From the NCBI GenBank assembly GCA_016342745.1, contig JAEINT010000016.1, forward strand, positions 94,480 through 158,479: DNA of 64,000 nt, in the 5' to 3' direction. A model generated the notes under the pieces. That model saw only the letters and a program-made list of their open reading frames with translations. It was not told where the DNA came from and ran no database searches. Numbering within the stretch: the stretch's first letter is position 1; each line of letters starts with the position of its first letter. A program made the position numbers and the translations under genes. This document shows positions 50,081 to 56,521 of this stretch, in pieces. This stretch comes from Labilibaculum sp. Lineage in GTDB: Bacteria; Bacteroidota; Bacteroidia; Bacteroidales; Marinifilaceae.

Positions 50081-50107
50081 GAGGCCCGAGAAGGCCTCTC
50101 TTTTTTT
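50081..50107 (+). terminator. Intrinsic terminator after the SDR gene
   Basis: GAGGCC (50081-50086) pairs with GGCCTC (50093-50098) around CGAGAA, followed by TCTTTTTTT. It separates the SDR gene from the DUF134 cluster. Confidence 0.85.
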
Positions 50108-50138: not shown

Positions 50139-50170
50139 TTTGTGAAATGAGAATATTCTCATTATATTTG
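50139..50170 (+). promoter_or_regulatory. Promoter of the DUF134/NifX cluster with 18-bp palindrome between -33 and -7
   Basis: TTTG (50139-50142), a 20-nt spacer and TATATTTG (50163-50170) make a textbook Bacteroidota promoter. The spacer contains AATGAGAATATTCTCATT (50146-50163), an 18-bp perfect palindrome. A bound dimer there would block polymerase. The DUF134 HTH protein encoded 17 nt downstream is the obvious candidate ligand (inference). GAAAATATTTC (50173-50183) is a weaker, related palindrome over the start region. Confidence 0.82.
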
Positions 50171-50186
50171 TTGAAAATATTTCCTT

Positions 50187-50591
50187 ATGCCGAGAAAAAT
50201 ACGATTAAGAAAAGTAGTGGAGCCTCCAAGATTTAAAGGTTATAGGCCTTTTGGAGTAAATGCAGGTACGAAAAAATCAATTGACTTGTTTTACGAAGAG
50301 TACGAAGCATTGAAGTTAGCAGATTATGATTTGCTAAATCATAAAGAGGCTGCGGAAATCATGGGCGTTTCTAGACCAACTTTCGCAAGGATTTATGAAA
50401 CTGCTCGCCGTAAAATAGCAACAGCACTAGTTGAAACAAAAATAATTAAGACGGTTTTTGGAAATGCAATTATGGATAAGGATTGGTATGTGTGTAATAA
50501 ATGTCATGCTCGTTTTAATATTCCTAAAACCATTGAGAATGATGCATGTCCAGCATGTAAATCAAATCTTATAGAATTAATTAACAAATAA
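50187..50591 (+). CDS. DUF134 helix-turn-helix regulator
   Basis: A 134-aa protein of the DUF134 family. It opens MPRKIRLRKVVEPPRFKGYR and carries a sigma-region-4-like helix-turn-helix (about residues 38-85; ALKLADYDLLNHKEAAEIMG, SRPTFARIYETARRK). A C-terminal zinc-ribbon-like knuckle has Cys103, Cys106, Cys121 and Cys124 (CNKC...CPAC), an extension over the minimal family that could bind a metal or iron-sulfur cluster and sense it. DUF134 genes habitually accompany NifX-like and MinD-ferredoxin genes. It is the first gene of the cluster, 4 nt before the first NifX-like gene. Confidence 0.88.
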   Translation: MPRKIRLRKVVEPPRFKGYRPFGVNAGTKKSIDLFYEEYEALKLADYDLLNHKEAAEIMGVSRPTFARIYETARRKIATALVETKIIKTVFGNAIMDKDWYVCNKCHARFNIPKTIENDACPACKSNLIELINK

Positions 50592-50595
50592 AAAT

Positions 50596-50913
50596 ATGAA
50601 GACAATAATAACATCAACAGGAGATCAATTGAATTCGATTTTTGATTTGCGTTTTGGACGAGCTGGTTGGTTCTGTTTATTTGATGAAGAAACAAAAGAA
50701 GTTCAGTTTTTCGAAAATGAAAGTATAAATGCAGCTTCGGGAGCAGGAACCAAGGCTGTTGAAACAGTCGCAGAATTGGGTGTTCAGAAGGTGATTTCAG
50801 GTGATTTTGGACCTAAAGCAAAAGAATTACTAGAAAAATTCAACATTCAAATGGTAATCTTAAAAGATGATAACAATACAGTTCAAAATATCATCGATAA
50901 TTTAAATTCTTAA
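50596..50913 (+). CDS. NifB/NifX-family Fe-Mo cluster-binding-like protein, copy 1
   Basis: A 105-aa single-domain protein of the dinitrogenase iron-molybdenum cofactor biosynthesis (NifX/NafY/ORP) family. Signature segments are DQLNSIFDLRFGRAGWFCLF and GAGTKAVETVAELGVQKVIS, ending LLEKFNIQMVIL. In NifX these domains carry cofactor precursors; in the sulfate-reducer orange protein they hold a Mo-Cu-S cluster. This copy has Trp-Phe-Cys (about residue 32) where other members have a His. No nif structural genes are in the window. Confidence 0.88.
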   Translation: MKTIITSTGDQLNSIFDLRFGRAGWFCLFDEETKEVQFFENESINAASGAGTKAVETVAELGVQKVISGDFGPKAKELLEKFNIQMVILKDDNNTVQNIIDNLNS

Positions 50914-50924
50914 AATTTCTCATG

Positions 50925-51110
50925 ATGCCAAAACTTGATGGAACAGGACCTGATGGAACAGGATTCCAAAAAGGACGAAAACTTGGCAAATGCACCTCTA
51001 ATGATATGCCAACGCTGCTAAAAAAATTAGGAGAAGGTCAAGGCCTAAAAAGAAAAAGTGGATGTGGTAAAGGTAGAGGGAAAAGATTAAAGAGCAATAA
51101 ATCGGTTTAA
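50925..51110 (+). CDS. DUF5320-type Gly/Lys-rich mini-protein, copy 1
   Basis: A 61-aa basic protein starting MPKLDGTGPDGTGFQKGRKL, then GKC, with a lysine/glycine-rich C-terminus (GCGKGRGKRLKSNKSV). The MP-x-LD-x-TGP-x-G-x-G...GR-x-LGKC pattern is the DUF5320 signature, shared with the next gene. These proteins are co-encoded with NifX-like and MinD-ferredoxin proteins; function is unknown. Cysteines (two or three) could donate or hold metal. ATG 50922 and 50925 are adjacent; I prefer 50925 to match the paralogue's MPRLD start. Confidence 0.78.
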   Translation: MPKLDGTGPDGTGFQKGRKLGKCTSNDMPTLLKKLGEGQGLKRKSGCGKGRGKRLKSNKSV

Positions 51111-51122
51111 AAGGAGGTAAAG
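51111..51122 (+). promoter_or_regulatory. Near-perfect Shine-Dalgarno sequence
   Basis: AAGGAGGT (51111-51118) lies 4 nt before ATG 51123 and immediately after the previous stop. Full anti-Shine-Dalgarno complementarity is unusual in Bacteroidota, whose ribosomes largely ignore it, and may reflect transfer of the cluster from another phylum. Confidence 0.75.
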
Positions 51123-51320
51123 ATGCCCAGATTAGACAGAACAGGCCCAAAGGGAAAAGGTTCCCGATCAGGAAGAGGATTAGGGAAATGCAATTCTCAA
51201 GGAGAAAAACAAGATGCCCAGAATGATTCTGAAGAAAAAGTTACGGGAAGAGGTTTGGGAAGAGGTTTTGGAGCAAAAAGGGGTAAGGGACGCGGACAAG
51301 GATTAGGGCGCGATCAGTAA
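51123..51320 (+). CDS. DUF5320-type Gly/Arg-rich mini-protein, copy 2
   Basis: A 65-aa, strongly basic protein beginning MPRLDRTGPKGKGSRSGRGL, then GKC. It repeats the pattern of copy 1, then runs into GRGLGRGFGAKRGKGRGQGLG repeats broken by a short acidic stretch (QNDSEEKV). Only one cysteine is present, in LGKC. It is probably intrinsically disordered. Tandem duplication followed by divergence from copy 1 is likely. It is followed by a hairpin at 51346-51387 that divides the cluster into two segments. Confidence 0.78.
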   Translation: MPRLDRTGPKGKGSRSGRGLGKCNSQGEKQDAQNDSEEKVTGRGLGRGFGAKRGKGRGQGLGRDQ

Positions 51321-51345
51321 ACAGACTTATCTTGAATAGCCTAAG

Positions 51346-51387
51346 CACAAGTGTATAAGAATTTGTTTTTGTATGCGCTTGTGTTTT
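51346..51387 (+). terminator. Hairpin with U-tail inside the cluster
   Basis: CACAAGTGTATA (51346-51357) pairs with TATGCGCTTGTG (51372-51383, two G-U) around a 14-nt loop, followed by TTTTATAATTTT. It could terminate or attenuate the first transcript before the second NifX-like gene. Confidence 0.65.
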
Positions 51388-51457
51388 ATAATTTTAAAAA
51401 TTGAATTATCAATAAGAAGGAAATTTAAAATCAGAATTTTCAATTAAAATATTTCGT

Positions 51458-51790
51458 ATGAAAATTGCAGTACCAGTAAAAGAAGGTGTATTAGATGCAC
51501 ATTTTGGACATTGTAGCCATTTTGCATTAATGGAAGTTGAGAATCAGTCAATTGTTGCGGAAGAATTAATTGCAGCACCACCACATGAACCAGGTAAATT
51601 ACCTCCGTTTTTGGCGAATTTAGGTGTTACTGATGTACTTGCTGGTGGAATGGGTGGAAGAGCCATTCAGATTTTTAACAGCAACAATGTTAACGTATTT
51701 GTTGGTGCTCCGACTTTGGAGGCAAAGCAATTGGTAGAAGGATTTTTGAATAAGAGTATCAGTTTTACTGCAAACTGTTGTGATCACTAG
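51458..51790 (+). CDS. NifB/NifX-family Fe-Mo cluster-binding-like protein, copy 2
   Basis: A 110-aa NifX/ORP-type domain. It begins MKIAVPVKEGVLDAHFGHCS with the family's HFGHC motif (His and Cys near residues 15-19). The core VLAGGMGGRAIQIFNSNNVNV follows, and it ends with an unusual Cys-Cys-Asp-His tail (TANCCDH) that could add metal ligands. It is a closer match to the MinD-ferredoxin-associated NifX group than copy 1. It starts the second half of the cluster, just after the internal hairpin; the DUF89 gene follows with a 1-nt gap. Confidence 0.9.
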   Translation: MKIAVPVKEGVLDAHFGHCSHFALMEVENQSIVAEELIAAPPHEPGKLPPFLANLGVTDVLAGGMGGRAIQIFNSNNVNVFVGAPTLEAKQLVEGFLNKSISFTANCCDH

Positions 51791-51791
51791 T

Positions 51792-52652
51792 ATGAATACT
51801 GAATGTTTGGTTTGTCAAGCAAAAACGGTAAAACAGATTGTGGGGAAATTTAAACCTGAGCCAAGGCAGGCAAAGGAATTTTTCACAAAAGCAGATTATA
51901 TTATCACCAATAGTAGATCCTTATCAGCACCTTATATTTCTTTGCTCTTGCATCGTTTAGCAAAAAAAACCTTTGCAACAGAAAACTTATATGCTGATGA
52001 AAAGAAAGAAGCAAACGAATTGCTTTATTCGCAGTATAAAAATTGGCAAACGTTAGTAAATGAGGCCAAGGATCCATTGCATTTAGCTGCAAAATTAGCC
52101 GTAATAGGAAATATTATTGACTATGGAGCGCACTCTGTTCCTGATGATATTCTTGCTGAAATTGAAACGCTTCTAAAGAAAGAGTTTGCGACAGATGATC
52201 GATGCAAAATGTTCGATGCAATAAATAAGGCAAAAAGTGTTTTGTATTTAGGCGATAATGCAGGAGAAATTGTATTCGATAAGTTATTTATTGAAAGTTT
52301 AAAACATCCAAATTTAACATTTGTTGTTCGTGACGAACCTATTATTAATGATGTGACTCTTCAAGATGCTAATTCGATAGAATTACAGGATGTTTGTACG
52401 GTCATATCTAACGGACATGATGCTCCATCTACATTACTTGAGAATTGTTCTGAAAACCTACAATCCTTATTTGAGAGTGCTGATGTCGTGATTTCTAAAG
52501 GCCAAGGAAATTTTGAAGGTTTACTAAATGAGAAAAGAGAGAATCTATTCTTTCTTTTAATGGCTAAATGTGATTTAATGGCTAATAAACTTGGTGTAAA
52601 AAAGAGAGACTTGGTTATTACTGAAAATAAGAGAGGAAACTATGGCTTATAA
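51792..52652 (+). CDS. DUF89 (ARMT1-like, damage-control phosphatase fold) protein
   Basis: A 286-aa member of the DUF89 family. The N-terminal CLVCQAKT pair of cysteines is typical of the prokaryotic subgroup. The metal-site motif LGDNAGEIVFDKLFIESL (near residue 152) and the C-terminal SKGQGNFEGL are intact. DUF89 proteins are metal-dependent phosphatases acting on damaged sugar phosphates; this subgroup sits in MinD-ferredoxin clusters, with unknown substrate. I start at ATG 51792, one base after the preceding stop, rather than GTG 51780. Its end overlaps the next gene by 11 nt. Confidence 0.87.
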   Translation: MNTECLVCQAKTVKQIVGKFKPEPRQAKEFFTKADYIITNSRSLSAPYISLLLHRLAKKTFATENLYADEKKEANELLYSQYKNWQTLVNEAKDPLHLAAKLAVIGNIIDYGAHSVPDDILAEIETLLKKEFATDDRCKMFDAINKAKSVLYLGDNAGEIVFDKLFIESLKHPNLTFVVRDEPIINDVTLQDANSIELQDVCTVISNGHDAPSTLLENCSENLQSLFESADVVISKGQGNFEGLLNEKRENLFFLLMAKCDLMANKLGVKKRDLVITENKRGNYGL

Positions 52653-53517
52653 AGTTGCTATTGTTAGTGGCAAAGGAGGAACAGGTAAAACAACTGTTGC
52701 TGTTAATTTGTTTTCTGCAATTGACGAAAAATGGACAAAGAATGTTCAATTAGTAGATTGTGATGTAGAAGAGCCTAATGATTTACTATTTTTTAGAAAT
52801 ACGAATGTTGAAAGTCATGAGGTCGTTAATCAGCCTGTTCCTGAAATTAATACAGAGAAATGTACTTTTTGTAAAAAGTGTGAAGAGTACTGTGAATTTA
52901 ATGCAATTTCAATAATTCCCTCGGTGAATTATGCTGTTGTTGATCCGAACTTGTGCCATTCGTGTGGCGCGTGTCTTCATGCATGTAAATTTGATGCAAT
53001 TGCAGAAGTAGATCATACTATTGGAGAGATAACACATTATCAAACAGAGAATGGAGCTAGATTAGTTGAGGGAAGTTTGCGTATTGGCTCACCAATGCAA
53101 ACACGAATTATAAAAGATTTAAAATCAAGTATTGGAATAGAAGAGGGAATTATCATTTTTGATGCGCCTCCAGGTACCAGTTGTCCTGTGGTTGAAACGG
53201 TTTCCGAAGCAGACTTTGTAATTCTTGTAACAGAACCAACACCTTTTGGCTTATATGATTTGCAATTAACCGTAGACTTGATGAAAGAAATGAAGAAACC
53301 TTTCGGGTTGGTTATCAACAAGGCCGGTTTAGGAGATTTAGAGGTTTACAAATATTTAAAAGAGGAGAATATAGAATTGCTTGCAGAGATTCCTTTTGAT
53401 AAAGAATATGCAGTGCAATATGCAAAAGGGCAGTTGCTTACAAATATTCCACCGCTAATTGAACAAGAATATTTAAAATTGGCAATTTACTTGAAAAACA
53501 GAATGAAAAATGATTGA
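52642..53517 (+). CDS. MinD-superfamily P-loop ATPase with inserted ferredoxin domain, copy 1
   Basis: A 291-aa ATPase of the Mrp/MinD class with the deviant Walker A SGKGGTGKTT (residues 9-18). Inserted after the first switch region is a two-[4Fe-4S] ferredoxin with Cys74, 77, 80, 84 and Cys105, 108, 111, 115. Walker B/switch IFDAPPGTSCP and the LVTEPTPFGLYDL segment follow. Such MinD-Fer proteins probably couple ATP hydrolysis to electron or cluster delivery. It overlaps DUF89 upstream and copy 2 downstream, so the three genes are translationally coupled. Confidence 0.92.
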   Translation: MAYKVAIVSGKGGTGKTTVAVNLFSAIDEKWTKNVQLVDCDVEEPNDLLFFRNTNVESHEVVNQPVPEINTEKCTFCKKCEEYCEFNAISIIPSVNYAVVDPNLCHSCGACLHACKFDAIAEVDHTIGEITHYQTENGARLVEGSLRIGSPMQTRIIKDLKSSIGIEEGIIIFDAPPGTSCPVVETVSEADFVILVTEPTPFGLYDLQLTVDLMKEMKKPFGLVINKAGLGDLEVYKYLKEENIELLAEIPFDKEYAVQYAKGQLLTNIPPLIEQEYLKLAIYLKNRMKND

Positions 53518-54397
53518 AATTACCATACTTAGCGGTAAAGGCGGAACAGGAAAAACGGGATTAACTGCAGCTTTAGCTTCGGTTGCTTCCAATACAGTAT
53601 TTGCTGATATTGATGTAGATGCTCCAGATCTTCATTTAATTTTACAACCGAAAATCAAGGAGACTCATGTTTTTCAAGGTGCTCGAATTGCAAGTATTGA
53701 TACCGAGATTTGTACAAATTGTGGGATATGTAAAGCCGAGTGTCGCTTTGGGGCAATTCATTATAAAACGCAAGGTGGATTAGAGATAAATCCATTTGAG
53801 TGCGAAGGTTGCAGACTTTGTGAGAGAATTTGTCCTGTTCAAGCGATCGATTCGGAGCACAGTATAAATAACCATTGGTTCGTTTCTGATACTCGCTTTG
53901 GTTCTCTTTTGCATGCGAAAATGGGTCCAGGAGAAGAGAATTCAGGTAAGCTGGTTTCGGTTGTTAGAATAAAAGCCAAAGAAAAGGCTCGAAGTATAAA
54001 TGCTGATTTTATTTTGAATGATGGACCTCCTGGAGTTGGCTGCGCTGCAATTGCATCGGTTACTGGTGCCGATAAAATAATTTTAATTACGGAGCCAAGT
54101 AAATCGGGTTTTCATGATGCAATACGATTAATGGAACTGGTAAAGAGTTTTTCTGTTCCAATGTATGCGGTTATCAATAAGCACGATATTAACCCTGAAA
54201 TAACAGGACAAATGGAACGCTTCTTCACTATTCAAGGAGTTGAAGTAATTGGTAAAATACCTTTCAGCGAATGCATGGTAGAATCTATTGTAGTAAAGAA
54301 AACAATTGTTGAATTTGATCCTAAATCTAAAATTTCAGAAACAATTCGAGAAATTTGGCACAATGTTACAGAGCCAGTAATTGAAGAAAAGAAATGA
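53510..54397 (+). CDS. MinD-superfamily P-loop ATPase with inserted ferredoxin domain, copy 2
   Basis: A 295-aa paralogue of the preceding ATPase. Walker A is SGKGGTGKTG (residues 8-17). The ferredoxin insert carries Cys68, 71, 74, 78 and Cys98, 101, 104, 108, so both cubane clusters should form. Switch/Walker B is LNDGPPGVGCAAIASVTGAD, followed by LITEPSKSGFHDAIRL. The two copies probably form a heterodimer, as adjacent MinD-Fer genes always occur in pairs in ORP-type loci (family knowledge). Overlap with copy 1 is 8 nt and with the thioesterase 4 nt (ATGA). Confidence 0.92.
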   Translation: MIEITILSGKGGTGKTGLTAALASVASNTVFADIDVDAPDLHLILQPKIKETHVFQGARIASIDTEICTNCGICKAECRFGAIHYKTQGGLEINPFECEGCRLCERICPVQAIDSEHSINNHWFVSDTRFGSLLHAKMGPGEENSGKLVSVVRIKAKEKARSINADFILNDGPPGVGCAAIASVTGADKIILITEPSKSGFHDAIRLMELVKSFSVPMYAVINKHDINPEITGQMERFFTIQGVEVIGKIPFSECMVESIVVKKTIVEFDPKSKISETIREIWHNVTEPVIEEKK

Positions 54398-54810
54398 TAT
54401 CAGGCGAATATAAAATAAGACCACGTTACGACGAGGTTGATCAAATGGGATATGTGTATCACGGTAATTACGTGAGCTATTGTCATCAAGCGAGAACAGA
54501 ATTACTGCGTAATTTTGGTGTTAATGATAAAGTTTTGGAAGATAATGGGATTATGATGCCCGTAATTGAGATGAACTTGAAATATTTAAAGCCTTCAGGC
54601 TACGATAATGAGCTAACGATTAGGACATGTATTAAAAAGTTACCTACTACTCGTTTTTATATTGAGTTTGTTTTTGAAAATGACAAAGGAGAAAAAGTGT
54701 GCAAAGCCGATTCAACTGTTGTATTTGTAGATAAGGATAGTAGAAAGCCTCAACGTACTCCAGAATTGATTATAAATGCTTTACAAGCAGAGTTTGAAAT
54801 GGTAAGCTAA
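54394..54810 (+). CDS. Hotdog-fold acyl-CoA thioesterase (YbgC/4-hydroxybenzoyl-CoA type)
   Basis: A 138-aa hotdog thioesterase. The active-site motif is RYDEVDQMGYVYHGNYVSYC with the catalytic Asp at about residue 15 (D-x-M-G-x-V-x-x-x-x-Y), followed by the long helix ARTELLRNFG and strands through STVVFVDKDSRKPQRTP. It hydrolyses acyl-CoA thioesters; such genes are often found alone. It overlaps the second MinD-Fer gene by ATGA, so it is translated with that cluster, although a mechanistic link to metal-cluster proteins is not obvious. Confidence 0.9.
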   Translation: MISGEYKIRPRYDEVDQMGYVYHGNYVSYCHQARTELLRNFGVNDKVLEDNGIMMPVIEMNLKYLKPSGYDNELTIRTCIKKLPTTRFYIEFVFENDKGEKVCKADSTVVFVDKDSRKPQRTPELIINALQAEFEMVS

Positions 54811-54889: not shown

Positions 54890-56521
54890 TTACTTTAAAA
54901 ATGCTTTTGCTGATTGAAGAGCGTCATCAAAATTATCGAAAATATCTTTTTGTGATATGAAATCGGCAATTTCGCTACGATTAATTTCTTGCAAAACTTC
55001 TTTGTTCACTCCAGATAAAATCACCTTTGTCTTTCTTTTTTCCATGCTTTTAATGATTTCGGTGAAGTTGTGAATTCCAGTTCCATCGATAAATGGTACG
55101 TGGCGCATTCGAATGATCAGTACAGCAGTTGAACCTTTAAGATTTCGCAATGTTTCCTGGTAACGCTTTGCAGCAGCAAAAAAGAACGGCCCACTAATTT
55201 CATATATTTCAATCTCCTTTGGAAGTTGATTGTAATTCTGAATTTCATCGGATTCGAATTCTGGTTGAAATACACCATTAATTTTCGACATACGATACAT
55301 GAAAATTAAGGCTGCCAAAACAATTCCCATTTCAATGGCTACAGTTAAATCTACCAATACCGTTAGAAAGAAAGTGGTAAGCAATACAATGATATCAAAT
55401 CTTGATCCTTTAAGTATTGAACGGAAAGATCGCCACTCACTCATGTTGTAGGATACTACAATTAAGATACCCGCAAGACAAGACATCGGAATTAATTTTG
55501 CCCACTGTCCGAAAATCAACATGATTAGAAGTAAAGTTAACGCGTGAATGATACCTGCAATTGGTGTTCTTCCGCCATTTTTTACATTGGTAGCTGTTCT
55601 TGCAATGGCGCCTGTTGCAGGAATACCGCCGAATATTGGTGAAAATAGATTTGCAACTCCCTGAGCTATTAATTCGGTGTTCGAACGATGATTTCCACCA
55701 ATCATACCATCGGCAACAACAGCAGATAATAAAGATTCAATTGCACCTAAAATAGCAATGGTAATGGCAGGTTGAAAATAATTTGGAAGTTGAGACCAAT
55801 CGAGGCTAGGCATATCAAAGCTAATTGAATTAGGAATGCTTCCATAAACAGATTCAATCGTATCTACTGGCATATCAAATACCTGTACTATTGCTGTCAT
55901 TGCGATAATTGCAATAAATGAACCGGGTATTTTAGGAATGATTTTACCAGCGAATAAGGTAAGTAGAATTGTACCTGCGCTAATCGCAACAGAATACAGG
56001 TTAATACTCGATAAATTTGAAAAATAGCAAACCCATTTAGCAATAAACTCTGAAGGGATTTCGTCTATTTGCAAGCCAAATGCAGCTTTCATTTGAGTAG
56101 AGAAAATCACTAAAGCAATACCTGAAGTGAAACCAACAATTAAGGGGTGAGGAATAAATTTTAAAACAGCACCCAGTCGCAAAAGACCAAATAGGATTAG
56201 AATAATTCCGGCTAAAAATGTCGAAATCATTAAGCCATCTACTCCATATTGGCTAACAATACCGTAAACGATAACAATGAAAGCACCAGTTGGACCTCCA
56301 ATTTGAACGCGACTTCCTCCCAAAAGGGAAATTATAAATCCAGCTACAATCGCTGTTATTAAACCTTTTTCTGGTGAAACACCCGAAGCAACAGCAAAAG
56401 CAATAGCCAATGGCAGTGCCACAATACCTACAATTATTCCTGCAAATAAATCTTTTTGAAAAGATTGAGCATTATAACCCTTGAGAACAGAGAATAATTT
56501 AGGTCTAAAAATAGACTTCAT
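54890..56521 (-). CDS. SulP family inorganic anion transporter with STAS domain
   Basis: A 543-aa SLC26/SulP transporter. The membrane domain (about residues 10-420, about 14 helices) shows AGIIVGIVALPLAIAFAVAS, GGSRVQIGGPTGAFIVIVYG, and NLFSPIFGGIPATGAIARTA. A cytoplasmic STAS domain (about 440-540) includes VLIIRMRHVPFIDGTGIHNF. It imports sulfate, bicarbonate or related anions; which one cannot be told. Monocistronic and convergent with the cluster at 50-54.8 kb. Confidence 0.94.
   Translation of the reverse strand: MKSIFRPKLFSVLKGYNAQSFQKDLFAGIIVGIVALPLAIAFAVASGVSPEKGLITAIVAGFIISLLGGSRVQIGGPTGAFIVIVYGIVSQYGVDGLMISTFLAGIILILFGLLRLGAVLKFIPHPLIVGFTSGIALVIFSTQMKAAFGLQIDEIPSEFIAKWVCYFSNLSSINLYSVAISAGTILLTLFAGKIIPKIPGSFIAIIAMTAIVQVFDMPVDTIESVYGSIPNSISFDMPSLDWSQLPNYFQPAITIAILGAIESLLSAVVADGMIGGNHRSNTELIAQGVANLFSPIFGGIPATGAIARTATNVKNGGRTPIAGIIHALTLLLIMLIFGQWAKLIPMSCLAGILIVVSYNMSEWRSFRSILKGSRFDIIVLLTTFFLTVLVDLTVAIEMGIVLAALIFMYRMSKINGVFQPEFESDEIQNYNQLPKEIEIYEISGPFFFAAAKRYQETLRNLKGSTAVLIIRMRHVPFIDGTGIHNFTEIIKSMEKRKTKVILSGVNKEVLQEINRSEIADFISQKDIFDNFDDALQSAKAFLK

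Follow-up and report, generated by a model that had tools for sequence, protein, structure and literature searches.

The closest described system to the locus reported here is the orange protein (ORP) complex of the sulfate reducer Desulfovibrio vulgaris (Orp3, Orp4, Orp5, Orp8, and MrpORP), which, according to passages of PMC6345978, joins NifX-domain proteins to a pair of MinD-type ATPases that both carry two [4Fe-4S] motifs, and in which Orp3 regularly co-purifies with Orp4 and the NifX-type Orp8. The same passages describe a Mo-Cu-S cluster in ORP of the D. gigas type and the transfer of Fe-S clusters from MrpORP to ORP proteins in vitro. A second point of comparison is IssA of Pyrococcus furiosus, a thioferrate storage protein with a NifX domain that is made under abundant iron and sulfide; its tail, which is cationic, rich in Gly, and probably unstructured, has been proposed as the part that holds the anionic thioferrate (passages of PMC5524996), and a Mo-oxidoreductase role has been proposed for AF2378-AF2380 (passages of PMC3949148).

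We analyzed a 64,000-nucleotide stretch of Labilibaculum sp. (the window; contig JAEINT010000016.1 of GCA_016342745.1, our contig C5, 94480-158479, in a host genome of 5.37 Mb and 59 contigs) in which nine genes at 50187-54810, all on the plus strand and each above a curated Pfam or NCBIfam cut-off, encode a DUF134 regulator, two NifX proteins, two DUF5320 proteins, a DUF89 protein, two MinD-ferredoxin ATPases, and a thioesterase (Table 1). The reading that we favor, and hold to be probable on balance, is that of an ORP-type operon switched by DUF134 within an iron/sulfide regulon and holding or building metal-sulfide clusters; that the operon handles metal-sulfide at all is slightly more secure, and which metals are involved is less so. 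The evidence lies at the level of sequence and consists of the operator, its recurrence, its dependence on DUF134, the co-variation of half-site and helix, the gene set, and gene fusions. The core ORP gene set is of an already known kind, and what is new is the prediction of a regulator, operator, and regulon on such a locus. The first-pass annotation had named these genes, placed DUF134 at their head, seen no nif genes, and assigned the DNA to Bacteroidota, and all of this was borne out: the genes are present with model scores above their cut-offs, the host genome has no PF00148 (nitrogenase-type) match, so that a nitrogenase link was rejected, and the nearest named protein matches of ATPase 1 come from Marinifilum and Labilibaculum (Bacteroidota), on which basis the host family is treated here as Marinifilaceae-like.

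A perfect palindrome, ATGAGAATATTCTCAT, sits between a TTTG and TATATTTG just upstream of the DUF134 gene, with its 14-mer core, TGAGAATATTCTCA, at 50148-50161 in the DUF134 promoter. We take TTTG (-33-like) and TAnnTTTG (-7-like) to be the Bacteroidota-type promoter consensus. The core is found at the same place in many relatives, several of which have two copies 26-31 bp apart. Recurrence was measured in 101 stretches (80 survey loci, 20 further stretches, and the window); 18 of the 20 further stretches were picked as close relatives, so the 52 DUF134 genes are unevenly spread, and in 19 of them the region from -150 to +30 contains a perfect TGA(N8)TCA palindrome, compared with 2 of 1176 control open-reading frames (ORFs; Fisher p = 4e-26). 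Allowing palindromes with at least 6 of 7 pairs raised these counts to 29 of 52 and 12 of 1176. Exact 14-mers numbered 20, in 14 of 21 genomes chosen for the locus. Of these, 17 precede DUF134, counting second copies of that gene that G443, G292, and G446 carry on another contig; two fall within ORFs; and one, in G385, precedes a DUF5320 gene with a CoA-disulfide-reductase-like gene behind it. The 11 genomes lacking the locus yielded a single exact 14-mer, within an ORF. A search of an open-licence library yielded no paper on operator sequences or DUF134-sulfide regulation and, among the DUF134 papers listed, judged by titles and abstract openings, no study of a DUF134 regulator.

How often the palindrome occurs in a genome depends on whether DUF134 is there. 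Of 56 family genomes, 26 (two of them from one species) have DUF134 above cut-off, and these contain 136 sites in 124.5 Mb, compared with 13 in the 92.6 Mb of the 30 genomes lacking it, or 1.09 versus 0.14 sites per Mb (p = 9e-10; genus means, p = 0.008). Three or more sites occur in 24 of the 26 genomes and in none of the 30, while a reversed-pattern control gave 10 and 8 counts, respectively. Half-sites also follow the regulator: residue X of the pattern S-[RQ]-x-T-x-X-R in the predicted recognition helix was compared with the best palindrome of each DUF134 gene, leaving out nine genes off the pattern and those having no palindrome, and Ala coincided with TGAG half-sites in 29 of 29 genes, while Thr coincided with TGAAC in 6 of 8 by script pick (p = 1e-5), or 7 of 8 when the nearest site in L236 is taken (p = 8e-7), cases that are not independent as helix types follow clades. 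The eighth Thr-type gene (L143) has mixed half-sites. At L236:1358-2656, a second, Thr-type DUF134 adjoins a palindrome of its own, TGAACTATAGTTCA, and a divergent DUF1847 gene retains TGAGAATATTCTCA. In a structure model of DUF134 (pLDDT 81.8), the three-helix part comes closest to sigma region 4, every match being weaker than E = 0.001, and 37 of 51 DUF134 proteins contain the CxxC...CxxC ribbon. It is very probable that DUF134 reads the palindrome. As a dimer it would cover its own promoter and so probably repress itself.

The predicted regulon was read from sites with at most one mismatch to the 14-mer. The host has six, compared with none for the reversed pattern, and they precede DUF134, a third NifX gene, a PhsA-like molybdoenzyme gene, fetAB, and a CusA/CzcA-type pump, with one within an ORF. 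The third of the three host PF02579 genes is on contig C26 (from 208775; L126:6776-7748), with a one-mismatch operator 41 nt upstream; its product is of the HFGHC type with a Cys/His-rich end, and the next gene encodes a 180-aa protein with no family match. On contig C53 (L125:334-5550), an exact operator lies between a mobA-like gene (by eye) and the PhsA-like operon, which continues with ferredoxin, NrfD-like, and sulfur-transporter (Sulf_transp) genes. In the scan of the 56 family genomes, sites were read in G501-G505 (38 of the 39 counted) and counted only in G506-G516 and G522. Thirty of the 38 are not within an ORF of at least 110 aa, and all five genomes have sites at DUF134-NifX1, at fetAB with a divergent reductase gene, and at AhpC (behind a Dps-like gene in G502), followed by the PhsA-like gene in four and a DUF1847 gene in three; the AhpC sites and four of five fetAB sites contain one mismatch. 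One copy of each regulon family was run against libraries and the others were named by likeness; the tested reductase (L242) combines a CoA-disulfide-reductase part with a rhodanese part, and its TusA stretch falls just short of the cut-off. The PhsA-like sites of the host and four relatives lie at like places, and in the upstream alignment of these five genomes 13 consecutive operator columns are invariant with the adjacent flanks diverged on both sides; conservation is likewise good in a stretch closer to the gene. This operator and regulon, absent from the first-pass annotation, point to iron and sulfur handling.

Several further sites were recorded. One-mismatch sites occur at like places in G502, G503, and G505 (L239/L249/L265 and L240/L250/L260), a Marinifilaceae operator site precedes a PNPOx-like gene (L235), and a CGGC-domain gene (L274:1291-2013) lies 274 nt from an operator site. 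Outside the family, in L167, a promoter-placed site precedes DUF134, which is followed by cydAB-like genes (by eye) and a CGGC gene (L167:3364-6764).

The gene set itself is widespread. A profile of ATPase 1 (19 aligned proteins) run against genome contigs returned at least 593 candidate stretches and at least 318 relatives, of which the best 80 loci were used; by record titles these include Bacteroidota, Deltaproteobacteria, Chloroflexota, Clostridia, Phycisphaerae, Spirochaeta, and archaea, among others. ATPase 2 was present in 80 of 80, NifX in 75, DUF5320 in 43, DUF134 in 33, and DUF89 in 21, all lower bounds because many stretches stop at contig ends. An ATPase 1 match (1e-20) was found in 108 of 295 genomes of the host order and in 4 of 148 genomes, own genome counted, in an even draw of the phylum. 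A set unique to the host genome was thereby rejected, and a lack of conservation among related genomes, which the first-pass annotation had said would count against its reading, was not what the survey showed. The thioesterase (4 of 80 loci) and the upstream SDR gene (2 of 80), counts that are likewise lower bounds, are excluded as system parts, and the thioesterase is therefore a local addition.

Kinship with the ORP locus, which the first-pass annotation had suggested, is upheld; the expanded set that it noted is no peculiarity of this host, since DUF134, DUF5320, and DUF89 are recurrent neighbors in several phyla. MrpORP above the 450-bit cut-off adjoins the same ATPase pair in four loci (L027, L028, L041, L064), while all four stand-alone Mrp-like proteins tested (L012, L018, L024, L031) fell under it. 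NifX2 matched the MrpORP model NF041136 at 112 bits, far under that cut-off, over positions 265-364, covering the ORP half only with the Mrp half absent, and NCBIfam model scores gave no MrpORP fusion at the window locus. Because of the shared pair and the NifX2 match, the ATPases are assigned to the Orp3/Orp4 kind and NifX2 is assigned as a detached ORP domain; classed on gene content, the locus is ORP-type, and on architecture neither MrpORP nor IssA. It differs from the D. vulgaris system in having DUF134 rather than a sigma54 regulator, and the DUF5320 pair, DUF89, and the thioesterase are its extras.

The two ATPase genes share 8 bp (53510-53517), and the two intact [4Fe-4S] motifs noted in each product recur in the aligned relatives: none of the 96 for ATPase 1 or the 88 for ATPase 2 lacks any of the eight ferredoxin cysteines. 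A Cys after switch II (DxPPGxxC) occurs in 99% of the 96 and 100% of the 88, whereas 35 Mrp-like paralogs in the same stretches have Asp at this place in 27 cases and are off pattern in 8. We take this Cys position to be that of a NifH cluster ligand, which makes an ATP-gated reductase plausible. The window ATPases have the same fold as the NifH/BchL and Mrp/ApbC SIMIBI ATPases, to which they add the ferredoxin insert. In the ATPase 1 structure model (pLDDT 95.7), ApbC, MinD, BchL, and NifH match with close scores that single out no family, and the model does not decide for a NifH-like fold. The first-pass proposal of an unusual metal-sulfur cluster with ATP-driven electron delivery keeps the standing of an inference. 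The DUF89 protein, whose gene is the sole host copy, matches the damage-control phosphatase PH1575 (2g8l) over its full length, including the N-terminal CxxC (kept in 96% of 26 relatives), and resembles AF1104 (2ffj), with scores under the NCBIfam equivalog cut-offs; its role in the operon is a guess. The start of this gene is more likely ATG 51792 than GTG 51780 (by eye).

The NifX and DUF5320 proteins are connected to their neighbors by gene order and by fusion. Where NifX follows DUF134 within 60 bp, it is of the FGRA type in 15 cases, HFGHC in one, and other in 11, and in L061 and L082 DUF134 and NifX are fused, findings that together suggest that NifX1 is a sensor partner of DUF134 that responds to a ligand. 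Most DUF5320 proteins are basic (pI > 9 in 63 of 72), and NifX-DUF5320 fusions above the Pfam cut-off were found in six loci (L027, L031, L033, L044, L054, L064), the candidate in L039 falling under it; at L064:8383-9258, a single protein carries NifX, DUF5320, and two [4Fe-4S] ferredoxin motifs. By analogy with the IssA tail, these fusions and the basic character suggest that DUF5320 is an IssA-like cationic tail made as a separate protein. IssA and this locus share the pairing of a NifX domain with such a tail and a setting of sulfide. In IssA, tail and NifX form one chain, whereas here the tail-like DUF5320 proteins are separate genes, NifX2 lacks an aromatic-rich tail, and storage is only proposed. 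NifX2 retains HFGHC and a C-terminal CDH.

Under the favored reading, DUF134 would bind the palindrome in its own promoter, with fetAB, CoA-disulfide reductase, PhsA-like, and peroxiredoxin genes as family targets and NifX1 as its sensing partner. NifX2 would carry a metal-sulfide cluster, and the DUF5320 proteins would serve as detached cationic tails holding anionic metal-sulfide, after the role proposed for the IssA tail. The two ATPases may form a heterodimer on NifX2, after the co-purifying Orp3-Orp4-Orp8, and reduce or load it by means of ATP and their ferredoxin clusters; DUF89 may act as a metal-dependent phosphatase in an accessory role, and the thioesterase would be a bystander. A more detailed version, which we put forward tentatively and regard as rather doubtful in full, has DUF134 and NifX1 sensing the metal-sulfide pool through a NifX-bound cluster, an ORP-like machine building or drawing on a thiometallate store, iron export and persulfide reductases trimming the free pools, and the helix Ala/Thr residue setting the site code.

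A number of observations weigh against the favored reading. In the 101 stretches, 23 of the 52 DUF134 genes, mostly outside Bacteroidota, have no such palindrome; two DUF134-containing family genomes have only 0 and 1 sites; and helix Gly pairs with mixed half-sites (4 genes with a palindrome). The PhsA-like site is 262 nt from the start codon in the host and in its four relatives, outside any recognizable promoter. No site precedes AhpC among the host's six, host fetAB has no divergent reductase within the stretch read, and AhpC and Dps-like targets also suit a peroxide response. In NifX2, Asp replaces the first Cys of the CxHFGHC motif seen in MrpORP. Outside the family, one-mismatch sites were rejected as a regulon: of 29 in 13 relatives, 25 were read and 22 of these lie within ORFs of at least 100 aa (those of L183 and L195 in the first bases of the ORF), and in G333 the reversed-pattern control outnumbered real sites, 6 to 4. 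The other 4 of the 29 precede DUF134 (L018, L138) or an octaheme cytochrome (L015), or follow ATPase 2 (L142); at L015:727-3440, the one-mismatch operator is promoter-placed, comes with a second half-like repeat, and precedes both the octaheme cytochrome, a member of the tetrathionate-reductase family, and a gene resembling cytochrome b.

Among other explanations, the one to which we give most room, while thinking it unlikely, is that the operon matures molybdenum enzymes, with a Mo(-Cu)-sulfide on NifX2 as a Mo store or delivery form, for example for the PhsA-like enzyme. This would fit the Mo-Cu-S cluster of D. gigas-type ORP (PMC6345978), the role proposed for AF2378-AF2380 (PMC3949148), and the operator before the PhsA-like gene, beside a mobA-like gene in the host and recurring in 4 of 5 relatives, but nothing connects fetAB, AhpC, or the reductase-rhodanese with Mo. 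We give a smaller chance to a system that carries or matures Fe-S clusters in general, with no storage or sensing, as could be drawn from the in vitro transfer by MrpORP (PMC6345978) and from the stand-alone Mrp/ApbC-like gene that follows the ATPase pair in several Bacteroidales loci; the window locus, however, has no Mrp (the host's best is on contig C27), and the basic DUF5320 tails on NifX together with the regulon suggest that metal-sulfide itself is what is handled.

Slightly less probable still is that some other regulator reads the palindrome as a Fur/PerR-type box, DUF134 being merely one target. AhpC, a Dps-like ferritin, and fetAB do look like a peroxide/iron regulon, and the half-site is similar to those of Fur boxes. 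A Fur box has a 7-1-7 arrangement, whereas the palindrome is 7-0-7, site frequency tracks the presence of DUF134, the half-site tracks the DUF134 helix, and the two sites of L236 differ in step with the Thr-type DUF134 beside one of them. A role of the ATPase pair in cell division or positioning, an early idea for the Desulfovibrio complex that draws on the MinD fold of the model and on the description of the ORP complex as a putative division factor with polar MrpORP localization (passages of PMC6345978), is very improbable given invariant ferredoxin cysteines and co-regulated genes concerned with iron and sulfur.

As to the limits of the locus under the favored DUF134-switched reading, a terminator-like hairpin in the gap after the SDR gene means that DUF134 probably starts a new transcription unit, and a second hairpin, between DUF5320b and NifX2, may be a terminator or attenuator that splits the locus into two units or attenuates it. 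No regulator gene other than DUF134 was seen among the ORFs of the locus, and a scan of the window for Rfam elements and tRNA genes found none. A SulP-like anion transporter gene (by eye) on the minus strand, 54890-56521, converges on the locus, with a hairpin-like repeat in the gap.

Table 1 Features of the DUF134-headed locus, in window coordinates
Feature	Position	Strand	Basis
Terminator-like hairpin with T run, SDR gene/DUF134 gap	50081..50098	+	Consensus match only; 7 such found vs 4.1 expected
TTTG, -33-like promoter element	50139..50142	+	Sequence read, columns aligned in relatives
Predicted DUF134 operator, perfect 16-bp palindrome ATGAGAATATTCTCAT	50147..50162	.	Sequence, scans, alignment
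TATATTTG, -7-like promoter element	50163..50170	+	Sequence read, columns aligned in relatives
DUF134 regulator	50187..50591	+	PF02001 72 bits; sigma-region-4-like HTH and CxxC...CxxC ribbon
NifX1, FGRA type	50596..50913	+	PF02579 51 bits
DUF5320a, 62 aa, pI 10.5	50922..51110	+	PF17253 (two DUF5320: 40 and 44 bits)
DUF5320b, 65 aa, pI 10.9	51123..51320	+	PF17253 (two DUF5320: 40 and 44 bits)
Hairpin, 15-pair main stem, DUF5320b/NifX2 gap	51343..51386	+	MFE -21, z -3.67, none of 200 shuffles as good
NifX2, ORP-domain type, DAHFGHC and C-terminal CCDH	51458..51790	+	PF02579 60 bits
DUF89 (ARMT1-like) phosphatase	51780..52652	+	PF01937 198 bits
MinD-ferredoxin ATPase 1 (Orp3/Orp4 kind), switch II Cys181	52642..53517	+	CbiA/ParA-type and paired Fer4 matches
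MinD-ferredoxin ATPase 2, switch II Cys178	53510..54397	+	CbiA/ParA-type and paired Fer4 matches
YbgC/FadM-type thioesterase, overlaps ATPase 2	54394..54810	+	PF13279 66 bits, TIGR00051 86 bits

With these results DUF134, a Pfam domain of unknown function, gains a testable DNA target in the form of an operator, a regulon, and a co-variation of helix and site, and a helix code in which Ala reads TGAGA and Thr reads TGAAC would allow regulon prediction in many bacteria. For DUF5320, likewise a Pfam domain of unknown function, the fusions offer a concrete candidate role, that of a cationic, detachable tail for a NifX protein that carries metal-sulfide. The predicted regulon ties ORP-type machinery to iron export and to the handling of reactive sulfur.

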